DNA from: an uncultured Bacteroidota bacterium
GTDB taxonomy: Bacteria > Bacteroidota > Bacteroidia > JABEUT01
Direction of reading: 5' to 3'
DNA: 32,313 nucleotides
NCBI GenBank assembly: GCA_903916255.1
Contig: CAIWVW010000071.1
Span: 1-32,313 of the forward strand
Shown here: piece by piece, positions 96 through 27,470 of the stretch
How positions within the stretch are numbered: the stretch's first letter is position 1
Layout of the letters: each line of letters opens with the position of its first letter
Translations under genes and position numbers: made by a program
The notes under the pieces: model-generated
Told to the model about the DNA's origin: nothing
What the model saw: only the letters and a program-made list of their open reading frames with translations
Database searches by the model: none

Positions 96-116
96 ATGCC
101 GAACTTGTTTCGGCAT
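96..116. repeat. REP-like palindrome, copy 1 (family ATGCCGAA-N5-TTCGGCAT)
   Basis: ATGCCGAA (96-103) and TTCGGCAT (109-116) flank the 5-base spacer CTTGT. The same palindrome occurs in the other orientation at 17422-17446 and 19641-19663. The first bases of the window (GGCATGACA) match the outer flank of this copy on the opposite strand, so the window probably starts inside a fourth copy. A dispersed intergenic repeat; no transposase is linked to it here. Confidence 0.7.
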
Positions 117-5588: not shown

Positions 5589-8417
5589 TTACTGTGTTTT
5601 CACAATTTTCTTAGCTGTTACTGAACTTCCATCGCGGTTTTGAATCCTTACCAGGTAAACTCCATTCGCCTTGGTAGAAATATCAAACTGAATGGTTGGC
5701 TGGTCGGCAACTACGCTTGCTATTGGTTGTCCGAGGTAATCATACACTACTATAACCTGTCCGCGAATTACGCCGGAAACAGTAAAGTTTCCGTTGTTCG
5801 GGTCAGGATATATGCTTATAGATGAAGCATTGCTTACTTCTTCAATTGCAGTAATAGTTACACAAGCGCTTGTTGAACAACCATTGGCATCGGTTACCGT
5901 GCAGCAGTAGTTTCCGTTGCATTGGCCTTTAAGCGTGTCAGTAGTTTCACCGCCCGGGCTCCATGAATAGGTATAGGCAGATGTTCCGCCGCTTGCAGTT
6001 ACCCAGGCTTGCCCATCGCATAGCCCTCCGCTGTCTGCGTTCATTGTAAAACCTTGTACCAGCGACAGTGCAGCAGGTGCCGTAATAGTAACACCGGCTG
6101 TACTTGAGCATCCGCTATTATCAGTAACAGTTACCGTATAGTTTCCGGCAGAAAGTCCGGATACAGTGTTATTAGTGCTGCCACCCGTCCAAGAATAGGT
6201 ATAAGGCGAGGTTCCGCCACCCGCTGTAACGCTCGCACTTCCGGTTGAAGCACATTCCGTTGCATTGGCAGTTACTGATGCGGTTAAAGAAACTACCATT
6301 GGCGCTGTGATGGTTATACCGGCCGTTGCATTGCAACCCTGGTTGTCCGTAACAGTTACCGTATAATTTCCGGCAGAAAGCCCGGTAGCATTAGCGGTAG
6401 TACTGCCACTTGTCCACGAATAGGTGTAAGGTGACGAACCACCGCTTGGCGCAGAAGTTGCACTTCCGTTAGAAGAGCATCCGGTTGCATTTGCTGTTAC
6501 GCTTGCATTCGCGGCCAACTGGGCAGGAGCCGTAATGGTTATGCTGCCTGTAGCGCTGCACCCCTGGTTATCAGTAACCGTTACCGTATAGTTTCCGGCA
6601 GAAAGCCCGGTAGCGTTCGCAATGGTACTTCCGCTCGTCCATGAATAGGTGTATGGCGAGGTTCCACCGCTTGGCGCAGAAGTTGCACTTCCGGTAGAAG
6701 CGCATCCGGTTGCATTTGAAGTTACGCTTGCATTCGCGGCCAACTGGACCGGAGCTGTTATAGTTACGCTGCCTGTAGCGCTGCATCCCTGGTTATCAGT
6801 AACCGTTACCGTATAGTTTCCGGCAGAAAGCCCGGTAGCGTTCGCAATGGTACTTCCACTCGTCCATGAATAGGTGTATGGCGAGGTTCCACCGCCTGGC
6901 GCAGCAGTTGCACTTCCGGTGGAAGCGCAGCCAGACGCATTAGCAGTAACGCTGGCATTGGCCAGTAACTGGGCCGGAGCCGTGATAGTTACACTGGCAG
7001 TACCTGCACACCCGTTGTTATCATGTACGGTTATTGTATAGTTTCCGGCAGAAAGCCCTGTTGCAGTAGTAGTAGTGCTTCCGCTTGTCCATGTATACGT
7101 GTAAGGCGTTGTACCCCCGCTGGCTGATGCCGATGCACTGCCGATATTAGAGCAGGCGGTTGCATTTGCCGTTACAGTGGCTGTGGCTGCAACAACAGGC
7201 GGAGCCGTAATTGTTACACTGGAAGTAGCCGTACATCCGTTATGGTCTGTAACAGTTACGGTATAGCCGCCGGCAGAAAGCCCGGTAGCTGAAGTAGTAG
7301 TACTTCCACTCGTCCATGAATACGTGTAAGCTGCAGTTCCGCCGCTGGCGGTAACAGTTGCACTGCCGTTCGAATTACATCCCGTTGCATTAGCCGTTAC
7401 GGTGGCTGTGGCTATAAGTACCGGAGGTGCAGTAATAGTAACCGACATGGTAGAGGAACATCCATGGTTATCGGTAACAGTTACCGTATAAATGCCTGCC
7501 GATAATCCGGTTGCATTTGCCGTTGTTTGTCCGCTAGGGTTCCATGCGTATGTGTATGCGCTTACGCCTCCATATACAGTTACCGTAGCCGAACCGGCGC
7601 TGCTTCCACCGCACAGATTATTGGTAGAAACCATTTTCAAAGGCAATGGATTCAGGTTATCCCATAAGGCCCATGAACGGTACATATCAACTGCAGGCAC
7701 AGGCCCTGTCTGCACAGCTCCTACGTTGCCAACAATAGCATCAGTACATCCATACCCGAACCAATCGCTCCAGGTATTGGTACCTGAATTGTACCTTTCG
7801 GCCATCAGGTGAGCCTGGTTAAGCACATTTGGCGAAGCTACCTCCGAATTACCCGTTCCACTGATATAGGAAAACGTAATGTTTCCCGCAGCAGGCTTGG
7901 TGCTGTATCCGGTGTTGGCATCAATTACATACGCCCTGTCTACAACATTATACGAATTATCTGCATTACTCGGGCTTCCCGGCGTAATAAAAGCATTCAT
8001 ATTTGCCACATCCGATTGCGGACCGCTTAATGAAGTTACACCGAGCTCGTTATCGGCTACAGTATGGTAGGTAGAGAATTTTACAACTCCGCTGCCGGTT
8101 CCTGCCGTACTTATGTCGAGTGTTACAGGTAAGTACTGTGCATTGGAATAGCCAAAGGGAACCGTATAGTTTCCCGTATTGGTTCCAATGTTCCAGTCTA
8201 CCTGGTTAAACTCATTTTCTGAAATAATCCAACCCGTTCCTGTCCTGGTAATCGCCGCTGGTGCGGGATTAGTCAAAACCAGCGAAGTTGGGTTGGCTGC
8301 GCTGCCTCCTGTCATCACCACATCGTATGACCCTGTCATAACTAATTGTGCTGATGCTTTATGAGGCAGCATCCCGATAAGTATCGGGGCTATTATAAGA
8401 CCTATATACTTTTTCAC
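5589..8417 (-). CDS. Secreted SprB-repeat protein with T9SS C-terminal sorting domain
   Basis: A 942-residue cell-surface or secreted protein. The start is GTG at 8415-8417, followed by a signal peptide ending HKASAQ (residue 24). Residues 25-260 are a unique N-terminal domain. Residues about 261-862 are eight SprB-type repeats of about 75 residues, each with PYTYSWTSGS, TGLSAGNYTVTVTDNQGC and an ITAP end. The last about 75 residues form a Por_Secre_tail sorting domain (IYPDPNNGNFTVSG, GVYLVRI, ending IVKTQ); YPDP replaces the usual YPNP. Such domains direct export through the type IX system and are then cleaved or attached. SprB itself is a gliding adhesin, but repeat content alone does not prove gliding. 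No T9SS machinery genes are in the window. Confidence 0.9.
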   Translation of the reverse strand: MKKYIGLIIAPILIGMLPHKASAQLVMTGSYDVVMTGGSAANPTSLVLTNPAPAAITRTGTGWIISENEFNQVDWNIGTNTGNYTVPFGYSNAQYLPVTLDISTAGTGSGVVKFSTYHTVADNELGVTSLSGPQSDVANMNAFITPGSPSNADNSYNVVDRAYVIDANTGYSTKPAAGNITFSYISGTGNSEVASPNVLNQAHLMAERYNSGTNTWSDWFGYGCTDAIVGNVGAVQTGPVPAVDMYRSWALWDNLNPLPLKMVSTNNLCGGSSAGSATVTVYGGVSAYTYAWNPSGQTTANATGLSAGIYTVTVTDNHGCSSTMSVTITAPPVLIATATVTANATGCNSNGSATVTASGGTAAYTYSWTSGSTTTSATGLSAGGYTVTVTDHNGCTATSSVTITAPPVVAATATVTANATACSNIGSASASASGGTTPYTYTWTSGSTTTTATGLSAGNYTITVHDNNGCAGTASVTITAPAQLLANASVTANASGCASTGSATAAPGGGTSPYTYSWTSGSTIANATGLSAGNYTVTVTDNQGCSATGSVTITAPVQLAANASVTSNATGCASTGSATSAPSGGTSPYTYSWTSGSTIANATGLSAGNYTVTVTDNQGCSATGSITITAPAQLAANASVTANATGCSSNGSATSAPSGGSSPYTYSWTSGSTTANATGLSAGNYTVTVTDNQGCNATAGITITAPMVVSLTASVTANATECASTGSASVTAGGGTSPYTYSWTGGSTNNTVSGLSAGNYTVTVTDNSGCSSTAGVTITAPAALSLVQGFTMNADSGGLCDGQAWVTASGGTSAYTYSWSPGGETTDTLKGQCNGNYCCTVTDANGCSTSACVTITAIEEVSNASSISIYPDPNNGNFTVSGVIRGQVIVVYDYLGQPIASVVADQPTIQFDISTKANGVYLVRIQNRDGSSVTAKKIVKTQ
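5831..7637 (-). repeat. Eight tandem coding repeats with a 225-bp period
   Basis: The ITAP-encoding segment recurs every 225 bases (for example near 6081, 6306, 6531, 6756, 6981, 7206 and 7431), exactly 75 codons. The central copies (about 6310-6985) are nearly identical in DNA, while the outer copies have diverged. This pattern suggests recent unequal recombination or gene conversion in the middle of the array. Confidence 0.9.
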
Positions 8418-15381: not shown

Positions 15382-15882
15382 ATGAAAAAAATAGTATTTC
15401 TGTTTATAGCGCTTCCAAGCCTTTTATGGGCTCAGGATACGCAACCCAAAGGCGATTTTTACCTTGAAAATAACGCCATCGTTTACCGCCATATTTATAA
15501 AGATTCGCTCGATTCGGCTTCGGTAATAATGCAAAAACTTATGGCGCAACTTCCCGCATCAACCACCATAAACAATCTTAAAGAATTTAAAACCGAACAT
15601 GTAATTACCGGTAATTATGAAACCCAGAACAGCACCGACGGCTACCCCTGGGAATTGCTGAAAGCCTATTTCAGCATAGAAATTAAAAACGGAAAATACA
15701 GGCTTACCCTGTCGAATATTATAGACAATCAAAATGCCGGAACGGTTCCTCTAACCTCTTTATATGTAAAAAACAATCCGCCTGAATGGCGCAGCGGAAT
15801 AGACAGCAAACTGGCCAAATTGGGCACAAAGTTTTTAAATGCCTTTCAACTTAATTCAACTGCCGGAAAAGCAGATTGGTAA
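15382..15882 (+). CDS. Small exported protein, possibly DUF4468-like
   Basis: 166 residues with a clear signal peptide (KKIVFLFIALPSLLWAQ). The mature part (NNAIVYRHIYKDSLDSASVI, then a two-layer alpha/beta pattern, YFSIEIKNGKYRLTLSNII) recalls the DUF4468 fold found in Bacteroidota exported proteins, but the match is by eye only. The TTACGG hairpin array starts eleven bases after its stop codon, the first hairpin acting as a likely terminator. Confidence 0.6.
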   Translation: MKKIVFLFIALPSLLWAQDTQPKGDFYLENNAIVYRHIYKDSLDSASVIMQKLMAQLPASTTINNLKEFKTEHVITGNYETQNSTDGYPWELLKAYFSIEIKNGKYRLTLSNIIDNQNAGTVPLTSLYVKNNPPEWRSGIDSKLAKLGTKFLNAFQLNSTAGKADW

Positions 15883-15892
15883 CATAAAAAAA

Positions 15893-15912
15893 CCCGGCCT
15901 TACGGGACCGGG
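15893..15912 (+). terminator. First TTACGG-loop hairpin, probable terminator of the 15382 gene
   Basis: Stem CCCGGCC (15893-15899) with GACCGGG (15906-15912), loop TTACGG, one C/A mismatch next to the loop's closing pair. It starts 11 bases after the stop codon. A-run before and T-rich stretch after. Confidence 0.6.
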
Positions 15913-16266
15913 TAATGTTTAGTCGTATATTTTTCATTCCACTTCTTTTCAGCATGCCAACCTTACGGGGTTGCTGCTCCCTTTAACTTGCCTGCCTTAC
16001 GGGGCAGGTCTTTTTGCTTGCTAACCTTACGGGGTTAGGCTTCTATTACTGCCAAACCTTAACGGGGGATGGCGCTTCCTTTAACGTGCCAACCTTACGG
16101 GGTTGGTCTTTTTGCTTACTAACCTTACGGGGTTAGGTTTCCTTTAAAGAGGCGCTTTACGGAGCGCTAAATCTTTTCATGGTTGCCAGCCTTACGGGGT
16201 TGGTCTTTTTTTGCTAACCTTACGGGGTCAGTCTTTCTGTTTACACCGCCAACCTTACGGGGTTGG
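15893..16266 (+). repeat. Array of eleven tandem hairpins with constant TTACGG loop
   Basis: This fills most of the 565-base gene-free stretch 15883-16447. Eleven short hairpins share the loop TTACGG (one, near 16051-16073, is irregular with TTAACGG). Loops start at 15900, 15963, 15997, 16027, about 16059, 16095, 16125, 16157, 16192, 16220 and 16255; after the first, the spacing is 28-36 bases (mean about 32). Stems differ but stay paired: CCAACC/GGTTGG, CCTGCC/GGCAGG, CTAACC/GGTTAG, GCGCT/AGCGC, CCAGCC/GGTTGG (G-T wobble). One copy (16214-16231) has a mismatch. Most are followed by a T-rich spacer such as TCTTTTT. The rest of the gap (16267-16447) shows no gene or motif. I do not recognise the family. 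Confidence 0.85.
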
Positions 16267-16447
16267 TCTTTTCTACAATCAAATCTAAAAAGAACGTTTA
16301 TCGCTTTCGATGAGACAAAACAACAACTAATGTGCCGGCTAAAACATGTATTTCGTCAGGAATAAATGTGATTTTTGTCACCAAAAGGAGTTTAAATACC
16401 TTTTAGTCCTTTATTATAAGGCTAACGAAAAAAAATAGATTAACCTC

Positions 16448-16849
16448 CTAATAAACAGTGCGTTTCAATAACTCCGCCAGCCGCCTTCTGTCATAGCTGG
16501 CGCGCTTTTCAGTCATATCTACATTCCGGCTGTTTTCATCCAGGTCCTCATCATTATGCGCTTGGATAGTCAGGTATTCATCGCGTTCCTTAATCCATTT
16601 GGCCTCTTCGGCATTCAAGTTTTTCCTTACGGAAGTATCCAACCTAACCCGAACCATCCTATACACCACTTGCAGCATACTATCCACCTGTTTGGCATAA
16701 CGCCGGCTGCAACTTAATGCATTACTGGTATTATACATACAGGCATTGTGAATGCTATCGTACTTTTGAATAGCCGCAGAAGGCTGTGCGACAGCAAAAC
16801 AAGCAGGTAAAAGAAAAATAAAAAAGAGAATACGATTAAAATTATTCAT
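16448..16849 (-). CDS. Exported LprI-like (DUF1311) protein
   Basis: 133 residues with a signal peptide ending CFAVAQ (residue 22). The mature protein has the pattern of the lysozyme-inhibitor LprI-type N-terminal domain: an early Cys (37), a second Cys (47), a run with spaced Leu/Tyr, then LNAEEAKWIKERDEYL, the conserved Ala-x2-x-W-x4-RD signature. In other bacteria such domains sit in periplasmic or surface proteins, some inhibiting lysozyme; inhibition here is not shown. It lies 8 bases downstream of 16858-17334 and is surely in its operon. Confidence 0.7.
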   Translation of the reverse strand: MNNFNRILFFIFLLPACFAVAQPSAAIQKYDSIHNACMYNTSNALSCSRRYAKQVDSMLQVVYRMVRVRLDTSVRKNLNAEEAKWIKERDEYLTIQAHNDEDLDENSRNVDMTEKRASYDRRRLAELLKRTVY

Positions 16850-17421: not shown

Positions 17422-17446
17422 AGATGCCGAAACAAGTTCGGCATCT
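17422..17446. repeat. REP-like palindrome, copy 2
   Basis: AGATGCCGAA (17422-17431) and TTCGGCATCT (17437-17446) around ACAAG. It lies 15 bases past the 3' end of the DinB gene. Same family as 96-116 and 19641-19663. Confidence 0.75.
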
Positions 17447-19459: not shown

Positions 19460-19777
19460 GTTGTGGTTATTCTTTCTGGCGTTTTTCAATTGCCATTCAC
19501 TTTAGTGAACGGTTAAAAGACAAAATGAAAATGGCTTTAGCCTTAAAGAGACTGGTTTTTGGCTAAAGCCAGAATGTTGAACTTTATTCTTCCCTCTGAT
19601 AAATGCGGGCTTGCCATTTCCCATTATTTCAAAAAATTGTGATGCCGAAACAAGTTCGGCATCTTTCTACCCCTGACAATATTTGTTAGCTGGAAAAAGG
19701 CAACATTACCTTATGCAGACGGCAATTGACAAAACGAAAGTTCAGCATTCCTATAACATTTTCCATACTTTTGTTAT
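19460..19777. other. Gene-free interval with inverted repeats
   Basis: 318 bases without a credible gene. It contains a short TTCACT/AGTGAA hairpin (19496-19509), an 11-bp inverted repeat TGGCTTTAGCC (19532-19542) with GGCTAAAGCCA (19561-19571), the REP-like palindrome at 19641-19663, and a -7 element TACTTTTG (19766-19773). It may be a remnant of a small non-coding mobile element, but no target duplication is visible. Confidence 0.55.
19641..19663. repeat. REP-like palindrome, copy 3
   Basis: GATGCCGAA (19641-19649) and TTCGGCATC (19655-19663) around ACAAG; same orientation as the copy at 17422. Confidence 0.75.
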
Positions 19778-24696: not shown

Positions 24697-27183
24697 ATGA
24701 AAAAACTACTTTGTATTTGTTCGGTTGTACTCGCATTTTGTTTTACCGAAATATCAAAAGCGCAGCAAATAATAACTATTGCCGGAAACAACAGACTTAC
24801 GGGATATAGCGGTGACGGGGGCCCTGCAACCGCTGCCGAAATAAATATAAATACCTTTTATAGCGGCGTAGCATTCGATAATTCGGGGAATACTTTTTTT
24901 GTTGATGGCGCCAACAATGTTATTCGTAAAATAAACTCCTCGGGAATAATATCCACCTATGCAGGAATCTATAACGTCAGCGGCTATTATGGCGATGGCG
25001 GCCCGGCCACAGCGGCTGAATTTAGCGGACCATGCAGTATTGCAGCCGACTATAAAGGCAATATTTATATTGCAGATGAAAATAATGATGTCATCAGGAA
25101 GGTAAACAGTTCGGGCGTAATCAGTACCGTAGCCGGGAATAATGCCAGCAGTTATGGTTATAGCGGTGATGGCGGGCCGGCAACAAATGCAGAGTTAAAC
25201 TACCCCATGTCGGTTGCTGCAGACAGCGCAGGTGATATCTACATTGCAGACGAACGGAATTTTATTATAAGAAAAGTAAACACTACAGGCATTATAACCA
25301 CGGCAGCAGGCACACCTTTAGCGGGTGGATACAGCGGAGACGGCGGGCCGGCCACTGCCGCTGAATTAAACGGTTCTATCTTCTATGTTTCTAACGATAC
25401 AAAAGGCAATTTTTACATAGTTGACTGTGATAATTTCAGGTTCCGCGAAGTGAACACTTCCGGTGTAATAACTACAATAGCCGGAAACGGAGTTCAGGGT
25501 ATTGCAGGAAGCGGTGGCCCGGCAACAGCCGCTTCTTTTCAATCACTCGGCGGGCTTGCAGTTGACAGTGCAGGGAATATCTGGTTATCTGTTGGCCAGA
25601 GTGAAGTGGATGAAGTGGTAAAATCCTCGGGAATTGTGAATACGATTATCGGAGCGCATAACCTGGGAGGATATTACGGGGACGGAGGCCCGGCTTTCCT
25701 GGCTGAAGTCGATTTTCCAGAAGGAATAGCTTTCGATAAACACTGGAACCTGGTAATGCCTGACCCGATTAGTAACGACATACGTGAAATAAACAATGCC
25801 ATGAAAGTTATTTTCGGCTATACCTACTATGACTACTGGAATAATTGCGATTACAACGGCTCACCAATGTATACCAACGTGAAAATGGAGCTGATAACAC
25901 CAACCGATACTTTATCTAACATAAGTGATGAAAATTCACTTTATTGGTTCTGTGTGCCAAAAGGAACTTATACAGTGGTATTTGACAGTACGTACAATAG
26001 CGGGTATAAAGTTATTTGCCCATCATCGCACCGCATAACAGTAACAGCCCCTGCAGATACGGTGGTAATGGGCTTTTCATGCCCGGGAACTTCATTTGAC
26101 CTGGCAGGCAACCTCAGCCTATGCATCGATACCCCATTAACCAATTCAAGCACTGCTACCATATCAGCTTGCATCTTCAATAATTATTGTGCACTTACTA
26201 GTGGAACCTTAAACCTTATTATTGATACCAACATTAAAGTAACAAGCTGGGTTGCACCCAGCGCCCCCAGCATCAGCGGAGACACCATGAAATGGAATTT
26301 TTCAAACCTGAGTGTATCCTTTAACCAAAACCAATGTGTATCTGTTACAGGTATTGTAAAAGATTCACTTGCCATTGCCACCGGCGACAGTAATTATGTA
26401 ACCATGTACCTTACTCCTGTTTCAGGCGATACAGCTCCATCGAACAACCTGGTGACCTATTGGGTAAAAAAATATCCCCGCAATTGTGTGGGCTTGCCTT
26501 ACGACCCTAATAATAAATCGGTATACCCGGAAGGGAACATCAATTCAGCCCAAAAACTTGATTATACCATCGAGTTCCAAAATACAGGCAATGCAACAGC
26601 TACCAATGTTATTATATATGATACCCTGAGCCCTTACGTAGATATTACAACACTATCTGTTAAATCGAGCAGTTTCCCATTAACCACCAGAATAATTGGC
26701 AATAACATAGTAGAGTTTATTTTTTCAAGCATTTACCTACCCGATTCTACAGGCAACCAAATTGGCAGCAAAGGAAATGTTATGTACAGCATTATGCCTA
26801 ACCCCAATCTTCCCAACGGCACACGCATAACCAATAAAGCAGGCATTTATTTTGATGCCAACCCTGAAATACAAACTAATACCACATTAAATACAATAGA
26901 CACCGCTATTCATACAGGAGTTGCTGCATTAGCGGCAAATACGCAGCATTTTATCTGTTTCCCGAATCCATTTACCACAACTACTACGGTTCTTTTCAAC
27001 ACTCATGAAAAGCATTACCTTGAAGTAGATGACCTAACGGGCCGCAAACTGAAATGGATTGAATGCAGCGGAACCCAATACAGCCTTAGTATGGAAGGAC
27101 TATCACAAGGTATTTACTTTTTAAGGGCGTTCGATAACAACCAACATTATATATCGACACAGAAATTGGTGGTAGAAAAATAA
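24697..27183 (+). CDS. Secreted NHL-repeat protein with T9SS C-terminal sorting domain
   Basis: 828 residues. The signal peptide ends EISKAQ (residue 22). Residues about 24-365 are six NHL-type propeller repeats with the recurring phrase GYSGDGGPATAAELN and blades such as NIYIADENNDVIRKVNSSG; six repeats fit one six-bladed propeller. Then comes a prealbumin-like segment, and about 620-740 a DUF11-like/DUF7619-like domain (LDYTIEFQNTGNATATNVII, YFDANPEIQTNT). The last about 75 residues are a Por_Secre_tail (FICFPNPFTTTTTVLF, QGIYFLRAF, ending LVVEK). Probably a surface or secreted binding protein; ligand unknown. A TTACAG-loop terminator starts at its stop codon. Confidence 0.9.
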   Translation: MKKLLCICSVVLAFCFTEISKAQQIITIAGNNRLTGYSGDGGPATAAEININTFYSGVAFDNSGNTFFVDGANNVIRKINSSGIISTYAGIYNVSGYYGDGGPATAAEFSGPCSIAADYKGNIYIADENNDVIRKVNSSGVISTVAGNNASSYGYSGDGGPATNAELNYPMSVAADSAGDIYIADERNFIIRKVNTTGIITTAAGTPLAGGYSGDGGPATAAELNGSIFYVSNDTKGNFYIVDCDNFRFREVNTSGVITTIAGNGVQGIAGSGGPATAASFQSLGGLAVDSAGNIWLSVGQSEVDEVVKSSGIVNTIIGAHNLGGYYGDGGPAFLAEVDFPEGIAFDKHWNLVMPDPISNDIREINNAMKVIFGYTYYDYWNNCDYNGSPMYTNVKMELITPTDTLSNISDENSLYWFCVPKGTYTVVFDSTYNSGYKVICPSSHRITVTAPADTVVMGFSCPGTSFDLAGNLSLCIDTPLTNSSTATISACIFNNYCALTSGTLNLIIDTNIKVTSWVAPSAPSISGDTMKWNFSNLSVSFNQNQCVSVTGIVKDSLAIATGDSNYVTMYLTPVSGDTAPSNNLVTYWVKKYPRNCVGLPYDPNNKSVYPEGNINSAQKLDYTIEFQNTGNATATNVIIYDTLSPYVDITTLSVKSSSFPLTTRIIGNNIVEFIFSSIYLPDSTGNQIGSKGNVMYSIMPNPNLPNGTRITNKAGIYFDANPEIQTNTTLNTIDTAIHTGVAALAANTQHFICFPNPFTTTTTVLFNTHEKHYLEVDDLTGRKLKWIECSGTQYSLSMEGLSQGIYFLRAFDNNQHYISTQKLVVEK

Positions 27184-27215
27184 TAAATCCCGGTCTTACA
27201 GGACCGGGATTTATT
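27182..27215. terminator. Strong terminator with TTACAG loop
   Basis: Perfect 14-bp stem (27182-27195 with 27202-27215) and the loop TTACAG. The first arm overlaps the stop codon of the NHL gene. Its loop and GC stem match the hairpin array at 15893, with TTACAG for TTACGG. Confidence 0.8.
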
Positions 27216-27268
27216 ATAATTAGCGTTCAAATGCCTTACAGGGCAATTTTTTAAGCCTTACGGGACTT
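27182..27268 (+). repeat. Second cluster of TTAC(G/A)G-loop hairpins
   Basis: Three hairpins: the terminator (27182-27215), TGCC-TTACAG-GGCA (27232-27245) and AAGCC-TTACGG-GACTT (27253-27268, with the same C/A mismatch as the first hairpin at 15893). A degenerate CCTTAACGGA follows near 27289. Like the main array, the cluster begins at the 3' end of a + strand gene. Confidence 0.65.
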
Positions 27269-27470
27269 GCTTCACATTAACGTTTCTACCTTAACGGATT
27301 ATTTTTTTATAGGTTACAAATCAATCAGGTCATTTCTTCATTTTATCTGAAATTCAGTTGGTAATTTTAGTTTAATTTTCTCTTTTACCCAACCTTTCCC
27401 CTATTCTCTCCGTTAGGGTGTAATAAACAGGTAATCTATAAGTTTATTAATCGCCCCTAAATTCAAAAGT

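Follow-up and report, generated by a model that had tools for sequence, protein, structure and literature searches.

A tandem array of CNGUAA-loop hairpins in a Bacteroidota genome: probable gene for a regulated multi-hairpin RNA

Short tandem hairpins in which the loop hardly changes while the stems do may be a gene for a structured RNA, a cis-acting element, a mobile palindrome or a minisatellite. To which of these does the array described here belong, from which strand would it be read, and what could it do?

The hairpin array and its conserved fold

Direct reading of the window, i.e. the whole stretch of 32,313 nucleotides that was analysed, confirmed the intergenic array of eleven hairpins at 15893-16266 that had been noticed in a first, sequence-only reading. 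The loops lie at plus-strand positions 15900, 15963, 15997, 16027, 16059, 16095, 16125, 16157, 16192, 16220 and 16255. They had been described as invariant, which is slightly overstated: on the plus strand ten of the eleven hairpins have the loop TTACGG, but the fifth copy, which also has the poorest stem, has TTAACGG. Likewise, the spacing had been given as close to 32 bases; it is irregular within the window (about 28-63 nt), and the median over the 35 arrays collected (see below) is 33 nt. A higher-order duplication of 98 bp is present in the window. The compensated stem changes named in the earlier reading proved to be real and its G-T wobble was found again in copy 9 (plus strand), while copy 10 contains an A-C on the plus strand that corresponds to G-U on the minus strand and had not been mentioned there. 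Altogether, the stems are Watson-Crick paired at 59 of 66 positions. When whole 3' arms were exchanged among the window copies as a control, the mean was 42 paired positions, and 59 was never attained in 20000 trials.

The array is located between two convergent genes, 15382-15882 (+), encoding a secreted-type protein, and 16448-16849 (-), which is LprI-like. The element appears to be larger than 15893-16266, as it also comprises a putative minus-strand promoter (16315-16381) and the T-tract of a terminator (15886-15892). The features, all on the minus strand and with hairpins numbered in RNA order, are as follows.

16368..16381, minus: palindrome GTGACAAAAATCAC of Crp/Fnr type preceding the array promoter, at a position common to six array promoters of the genus
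16355..16358, minus: second conserved box, TGAC, probably a degenerate second Crp/Fnr half-site, at a fixed 9-nt distance from the palindrome
16316..16323, minus: -7-like element TTGTTTTG of the Bacteroidota TAnnTTTG type, from the promoter alignment and the TTTGTNTC strand count
near 16309, minus: putative transcription start, placed from the -7-like element
15886..16309, minus: putative ncRNA of about 420 nt with eleven C[N]GUAA-loop hairpins, A-rich linkers and an intrinsic terminator, on sequence evidence
16249..16266, minus: hairpin 1, CCAACC-CCGTAA-GGTTGG
16214..16231, minus: hairpin 2, CTGACC-CCGTAA-GGTTAG, one G-U pair on the minus strand
16186..16203, minus: hairpin 3, CCAACC-CCGTAA-GGCTGG, one A-C mismatch on the minus strand
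16152..16167, minus: hairpin 4, GCGCT-CCGTAA-AGCGC
16119..16136, minus: hairpin 5, CTAACC-CCGTAA-GGTTAG
16089..16106, minus: hairpin 6, CCAACC-CCGTAA-GGTTGG
16053..16071, minus: hairpin 7, CATCCC-CCGTTAA-GGTTTG, degenerate, with a 7-nt loop and an imperfect stem; missed by the covariance model
16021..16038, minus: hairpin 8, CTAACC-CCGTAA-GGTTAG
15991..16008, minus: hairpin 9, CCTGCC-CCGTAA-GGCAGG
15957..15974, minus: hairpin 10, GCAACC-CCGTAA-GGTTGG
15893..15912, minus: hairpin 11, the terminator hairpin CCCGGTCCCGTAAGGCCGGG
15886..15892, minus: T7 tract of the intrinsic terminator
27186..27274, minus: another array of this family with three hairpins, of which the last resembles a terminator and has a 16-bp stem

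A covariance model was run on the window's own 3.74 Mb genome, and every one of the 13 hits with E < 1 fell in the two window arrays; the family was traced across the class Bacteroidia (see below). The second array is antisense to, and directly behind, the gene at 24697-27183, and a degenerate fourth loop, CCGTTAA, occurs beside it near 27292.

Other repeats were also seen in the window. A perfect hairpin, TGCCGAAACAAGTTCGGCA, is present in three identical copies at 97-115 (-), 17425-17443 (+) and 19643-19661 (+), compared to a chance expectation of 0.01; it occurs in both orientations and looks like a separate, dispersed palindrome family. Positions 6118-7406 contain about 5.7 copies of a 225-bp repeat within the gene at 5589-8417, which encodes a large repetitive secreted-type protein.

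An alignment of 66 hairpins from the 35 arrays showed changes on both sides at all seven stem pairs. Pairing was found in 82% of the cells versus 56% after shuffling, the double changes amounted to 152 versus 56, and pairing fell to 38% when the partner was slid by one column. Since the aligned hairpins had been picked partly for their pairing, the test was repeated on loci found by the loop alone, where 513 of 636 outer pairs were formed, as compared to 280 ± 10 with shuffled arms. In the loop, C, G, U, A and A are conserved; read on the minus strand it is C[C>U>A]GUAA, every one of the 66 aligned hairpins having C[C/U]GUAA, and the closing pair is C-G in 64 of them. An orthologous three-hairpin array in five genomes of one family has kept its number and its three loops while the linkers drift, and its third stem has changed from CCAGCC/GGCTGG to CCTGTC/GACAGG. 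The z-scores from shuffling of the whole fold are modest (-2.26 for the other strand versus -1.42 for the CCGTAA strand). The both-sided changes and the loop-only comparison strongly support the earlier suggestion that the folded form of the hairpins is under selection.

Strand and promoter of the putative RNA

Several observations indicate that the minus strand, with its CCGTAA loops, is probably the RNA. A terminator at or near the array end was found on the CCGTAA strand in 22 of the 35 arrays versus 10 on the other strand, and the end hairpin is often itself the terminator, as in the window (CCCGGTCCCGTAAGGCCGGG-T7). Wobble changes compatible with G-U favoured the CCGTAA strand by 30:12 over the inner five pairs; over six pairs the ratio was 45:27, which is a weak difference (p about 0.04) from data overlapping with those of the 30:12 test, and taken together the wobble signal is moderate. 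The linkers on this strand are 47% A. Upstream, the TTTGTNTC motif preceded 7 arrays on the CCGTAA strand compared to 1 on the other (0.9 in shuffles), whereas searching for the generic TAnnTTTG promoter showed no excess for either of the strands, the informative evidence being the longer motif and the genus alignment. On the promoter side, the nearest gene was on the same strand in 18:6 cases, compared to 12:12 on the other side, as counted from crude ORF calls. Whole-array folding energies did not discriminate between the strands.

With regard to the linkers, the T-rich spacers reported earlier do exist on the TTACGG (plus) strand, but they are evenly T-rich (27-50% T over the first eight positions behind the stem) and form no tract after the stems; internal hairpins lack a U-tract immediately behind the stem, whichever strand is read. 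At the end hairpin, on the minus strand, the stem is directly followed by the T7 tract of an intrinsic terminator. The proposal that the array had grown from a terminator is thereby supported in one respect, as the end hairpin with the same loop terminates a putative minus-strand transcript, but not in the other, as the internal hairpins lack U-tracts. Of the alternatives listed in the earlier reading, the structured non-coding RNA is the one favoured here; that reading took the hairpins from the plus strand, which is probably not the transcribed one.

The window array (genome G000) and an array in G002 are orthologous, and both have a conserved upstream block on the minus strand. When six arrays of the genus were aligned on the -7-like element (five genomes, G002 contributing two loci), RTGAYnnnnRTCAY, TGAC and TTnnTTTG fell into the same columns, with the TGAC box 9 nt beyond the palindrome and TTnnTTTG about 35 nt after TGAC. 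Five of the six arrays matched the strict pattern, that of G006 deviating in the first half-site, and a seventh promoter, that of the G010 array, was similar but shifted. Eleven genomes of the genus were then searched with the fixed-spacing pattern, allowing one mismatch and using the reversed pattern as control. The pattern occurred at at least 34 places in 9 of the 11 genomes, and the reversed pattern at none. Of the exact matches, 5 of 11 precede arrays, and other matches lie upstream of genes for Usp, Dps-like ferritin, Hsp20, cytochrome c, COX2, pyrophosphatase and response regulators. The pattern is also found upstream of the gene of a REC-cNMP-HTH_Crp hybrid, which may regulate itself and which has homologues in 10 of the 11 genomes, the window's own included. 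The homologue in G000, encoded on contig C53, shares 63% identity with that of G010. As judged by these matches, the fixed-spacing tandem promoter of Crp/Fnr type is one that defines a stress regulon of the genus (e.g. loci L264-L293). Because the promoter is common to Usp, Dps, Hsp20, cytochrome and REC-Crp genes, we infer that the array RNA belongs to a low-oxygen/stress-type regulon.

In other lineages, the arrays at L057, L063 and L097 are preceded by a different conserved promoter block, and it thus seems that the RNA, not one promoter, is the conserved unit. The f61 and Adhaeribacter arrays have no recognisable promoter, and certain arrays resemble parts of mRNA 3' or 5' regions.

Some loci have features of their own. 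L255, L256 (family f21) and L129 contain long arrays in which short stems alternate and the number of hairpins reaches 21, and just upstream of these, on the CCGTAA strand, a TATTGGAATATA motif replaces the TTTG promoter. On the same strand, L057 and L097 contain a conserved ORF of about 31 aa (MITAIAIIGFFRKFRSLLPAERETRRYSMYP-like) between array and terminator, of which the counterpart in L063 is shorter and weaker, and L073 and L114 have a membrane-type ORF of about 40 aa (MKHFLAKPSNMDQFRQKTLLNSAIVMLVFSMSIFYGAYF) upstream of the array, as well as flanking genes, in common. In Adhaeribacter (L052 and L090), two arrays are present per locus; since the small genes (90-112 aa) that they immediately follow are paralogous, small gene and array seem to have been duplicated together.

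Distribution of the hairpin family

A loop-only tandem pattern was used to search 396 Bacteroidia genomes. It matched 22 of them, about 20 of which contained real hairpins (approximately 5%, for the exact pattern), and similar arrays were obtained both from genomes of the same genus and from other families of the class. When all bacterial species were scanned, the good hairpin arrays among the matches listed carried Bacteroidota names, except for L114 ('uncultured bacterium'), which has flanking genes matching those of a Chitinophagales locus. Cultured environmental strains with an array include Adhaeribacter aquaticus DSM 16391 and Chitinophagaceae bacterium IBVUCB1. The resulting collection comprises 35 distinct arrays with 217 hairpins, 3 to 15 per array; arrays with shorter stems, which were left out of this set, are sometimes longer (21 hairpins in L256). 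In or near the arrays, 217 hairpins were on the same strand and 0 on the opposite strand, and essentially no such hairpins were found outside arrays.

Rfam gave no hit on the window and, when thresholds were relaxed, only sub-threshold hits at chance level for the array and the other array loci. A search of the open-access literature with loop or array terms yielded no description either, so that neither source gave a match to a named family. A phage origin was rejected, as 17 viral contigs with the loop pattern showed no hairpin clusters on scanning. Long ORFs cross some arrays, but a translated plus-strand repeat was also rejected, because the spacing is not a multiple of three (remainders 1, 2 and 0 in a ratio of 77:58:47) and T-rich DNA lacks stops.

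Possible function and comparison with known systems

We consider it very probable from the sequence evidence that the array is a regulated multi-hairpin non-coding RNA. The conserved fold, the probable strand, the promoter-terminator anatomy, the co-regulation and the distribution find support in the sequences; what we infer is that the RNA is transcribed, that it has a bound partner and that it acts by titration. The RNA would be transcribed from the minus strand, starting near 16309, to a length of about 420 nt, under the control of a Crp/Fnr-family regulator, probably the REC-Crp hybrid, in common with low-oxygen/stress-type genes. Its eleven short hairpins would each display the loop C-N-G-U-A-A, closed by a C-G pair (in one case U-A), the A-rich linkers between them would be unpaired, and the RNA would end at the intrinsic terminator, whose hairpin bears the same loop. 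While the stress regulon is on, such an RNA would most likely capture an RNA-binding protein multivalently, as CsrB and RsmZ capture CsrA. Loops that stay constant while their stems vary freely, repeated 3-15 times or more, suggest that the loop is recognised and that copy number matters. Provided that the array is a regulated multi-hairpin RNA, we slightly favour this sponge mode, and the explanation as a whole, a regulated RNA of about 420 nt capturing an RNA-binding protein, has in our judgement roughly an even chance of being correct.

As to the partner, CsrA was found in none of 40 Bacteroidia genomes, 20 of them array-bearing, in a search that recovered the positive controls E. coli, B. 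subtilis and T. maritima. Hfq was likewise absent from all 40 genomes, which led us to reject an Hfq-dependent sRNA. RRM proteins are present in 34 of the 40 genomes; they are disfavoured as an obligatory partner, as they are missing from the array genomes G119 and G249. The covariance-model scan found no good single hairpins elsewhere in the window's genome that could mark mRNA targets. Mimicry of the tRNA-Thr anticodon (CNGUAA resembling a short NGU anticodon loop) was set aside, as the loop is 6 nt and G was never seen at the wobble position.

Alternatively, the hairpins might act in cis as a stability, termination or spacer element that blocks exonucleases or convergent read-through from 3' regions and has spread by tandem duplication. 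The intergenic position of the array between convergent genes, its terminator hairpin and the location of the Adhaeribacter arrays after paralogous genes are consistent with this. However, a role of this kind requires stems but not a constant loop, the internal hairpins are without U-tracts, and arrays of the genus come with a regulated promoter and a terminator of their own; we regard a cis-acting role as unlikely. Rather doubtful, too, is a base-pairing sRNA in which the identical loop seed CCGUAAG would pair with CUUACGG-like sites in many mRNAs, repetition raising its potency. Although the loop is exposed and constant, and a regulated promoter with a terminator is typical of trans-acting sRNAs, no enrichment of the complement CCTTACGGGG was seen outside the array (2 copies in 3.7 Mb, compared to 3 of the reversed control), and eleven repeats of one seed would be unusual; moreover, the accessible seed is only 6 nt since the loop-adjacent stem pairs vary freely.

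A feature at the DNA level, acting by hairpin extrusion or as a region with several protein-binding sites, appears improbable, as does a neutral minisatellite whose arms are kept complementary by template-switch repair. In their favour, the array number varies (3-15 or more), higher-order duplications such as that of 98 bp occur, and quasi-palindrome correction can change both arms together, but template switching would neither keep the loop constant nor favour one type of wobble. Orthologous arrays, furthermore, keep their number and loops while the linkers diverge, and the regulated promoter-terminator frame would be unexplained; the multi-site protein-binding region considered in the earlier reading is among the less likely alternatives. 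Mobilisation of a REP/BIME-like palindrome by a RAYT (Y1) transposase, also raised there, is highly improbable despite the intergenic palindromes and 7 Y1 transposase matches in the window's genome, as these lie elsewhere than on the window's contig (C71), where the linked transposase looked for was not found, Y1_Tnp is absent from the near-complete array genomes G172, G249, G272 and G283, the two arrays on one contig have a single orientation and no dispersed copies, and the conserved part is the loop rather than the stem.

Returning to a regulated RNA with a protein reader, a single loop repeated in a stress-regulated transcript would be a ready bait for a global RNA-binding regulator comparable to CsrA or Hfq, and with a loop alphabet of CNGUAA on C-G, mutational tests would be simple. 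More tentatively, the arrays may represent a Bacteroidia-wide, previously undescribed family of multi-hairpin regulatory RNAs whose loop code, CNGUAA, is recognised by an RNA-binding protein yet to be discovered; the family would give a group that lacks CsrA and Hfq its own sponge-type post-transcriptional control, with a REC-Crp low-oxygen/stress switch in the window's genus. A short tandem repeat of the kind usually dismissed as a minisatellite can be a conserved RNA gene when its stems covary around a fixed loop.

Among known elements, intrinsic terminators include the terminal hairpin with its T7 tract, but differ from the internal hairpins, which have no sense-strand U-tracts and whose loop has been conserved in different families of the class. 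FnrS is a short base-pairing RNA that depends on Hfq and is controlled by FNR. The putative array RNA resembles it as a small RNA under a Crp/Fnr-type regulator, together with respiration and stress genes, but would consist of tandem hairpins in host genomes without Hfq. REPs and BIMEs are, like the arrays, short intergenic palindromes that are sometimes clustered. REPs generally occur in more than 100 copies per genome, the orientation within BIMEs alternates, and these elements are associated with RAYTs (PMC2817692), whereas the window's genome has two arrays in one orientation with no linked RAYT, and conservation resides in the loop in the arrays and in the stem or foot in REPs.

In the Csr/Rsm systems, the stem-loops of RsmZ present A(N)GGAX, closed by a C-G pair (PMC4005645). 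The arrays have the loop CNGUAA versus ANGGA of Csr/Rsm, and their hosts belong to a different phylum; as the loop differs and the Csr protein is missing from all 40 genomes, we do not regard the array as a member of the Csr system proper. With CsrB/CsrC and RsmX/Y/Z it nevertheless appears to share several stem-loops with a constant loop motif, variable stems and a C-G closing pair, as well as, on sequence evidence for the array, single-stranded linkers, a rho-independent terminator and a regulated promoter.
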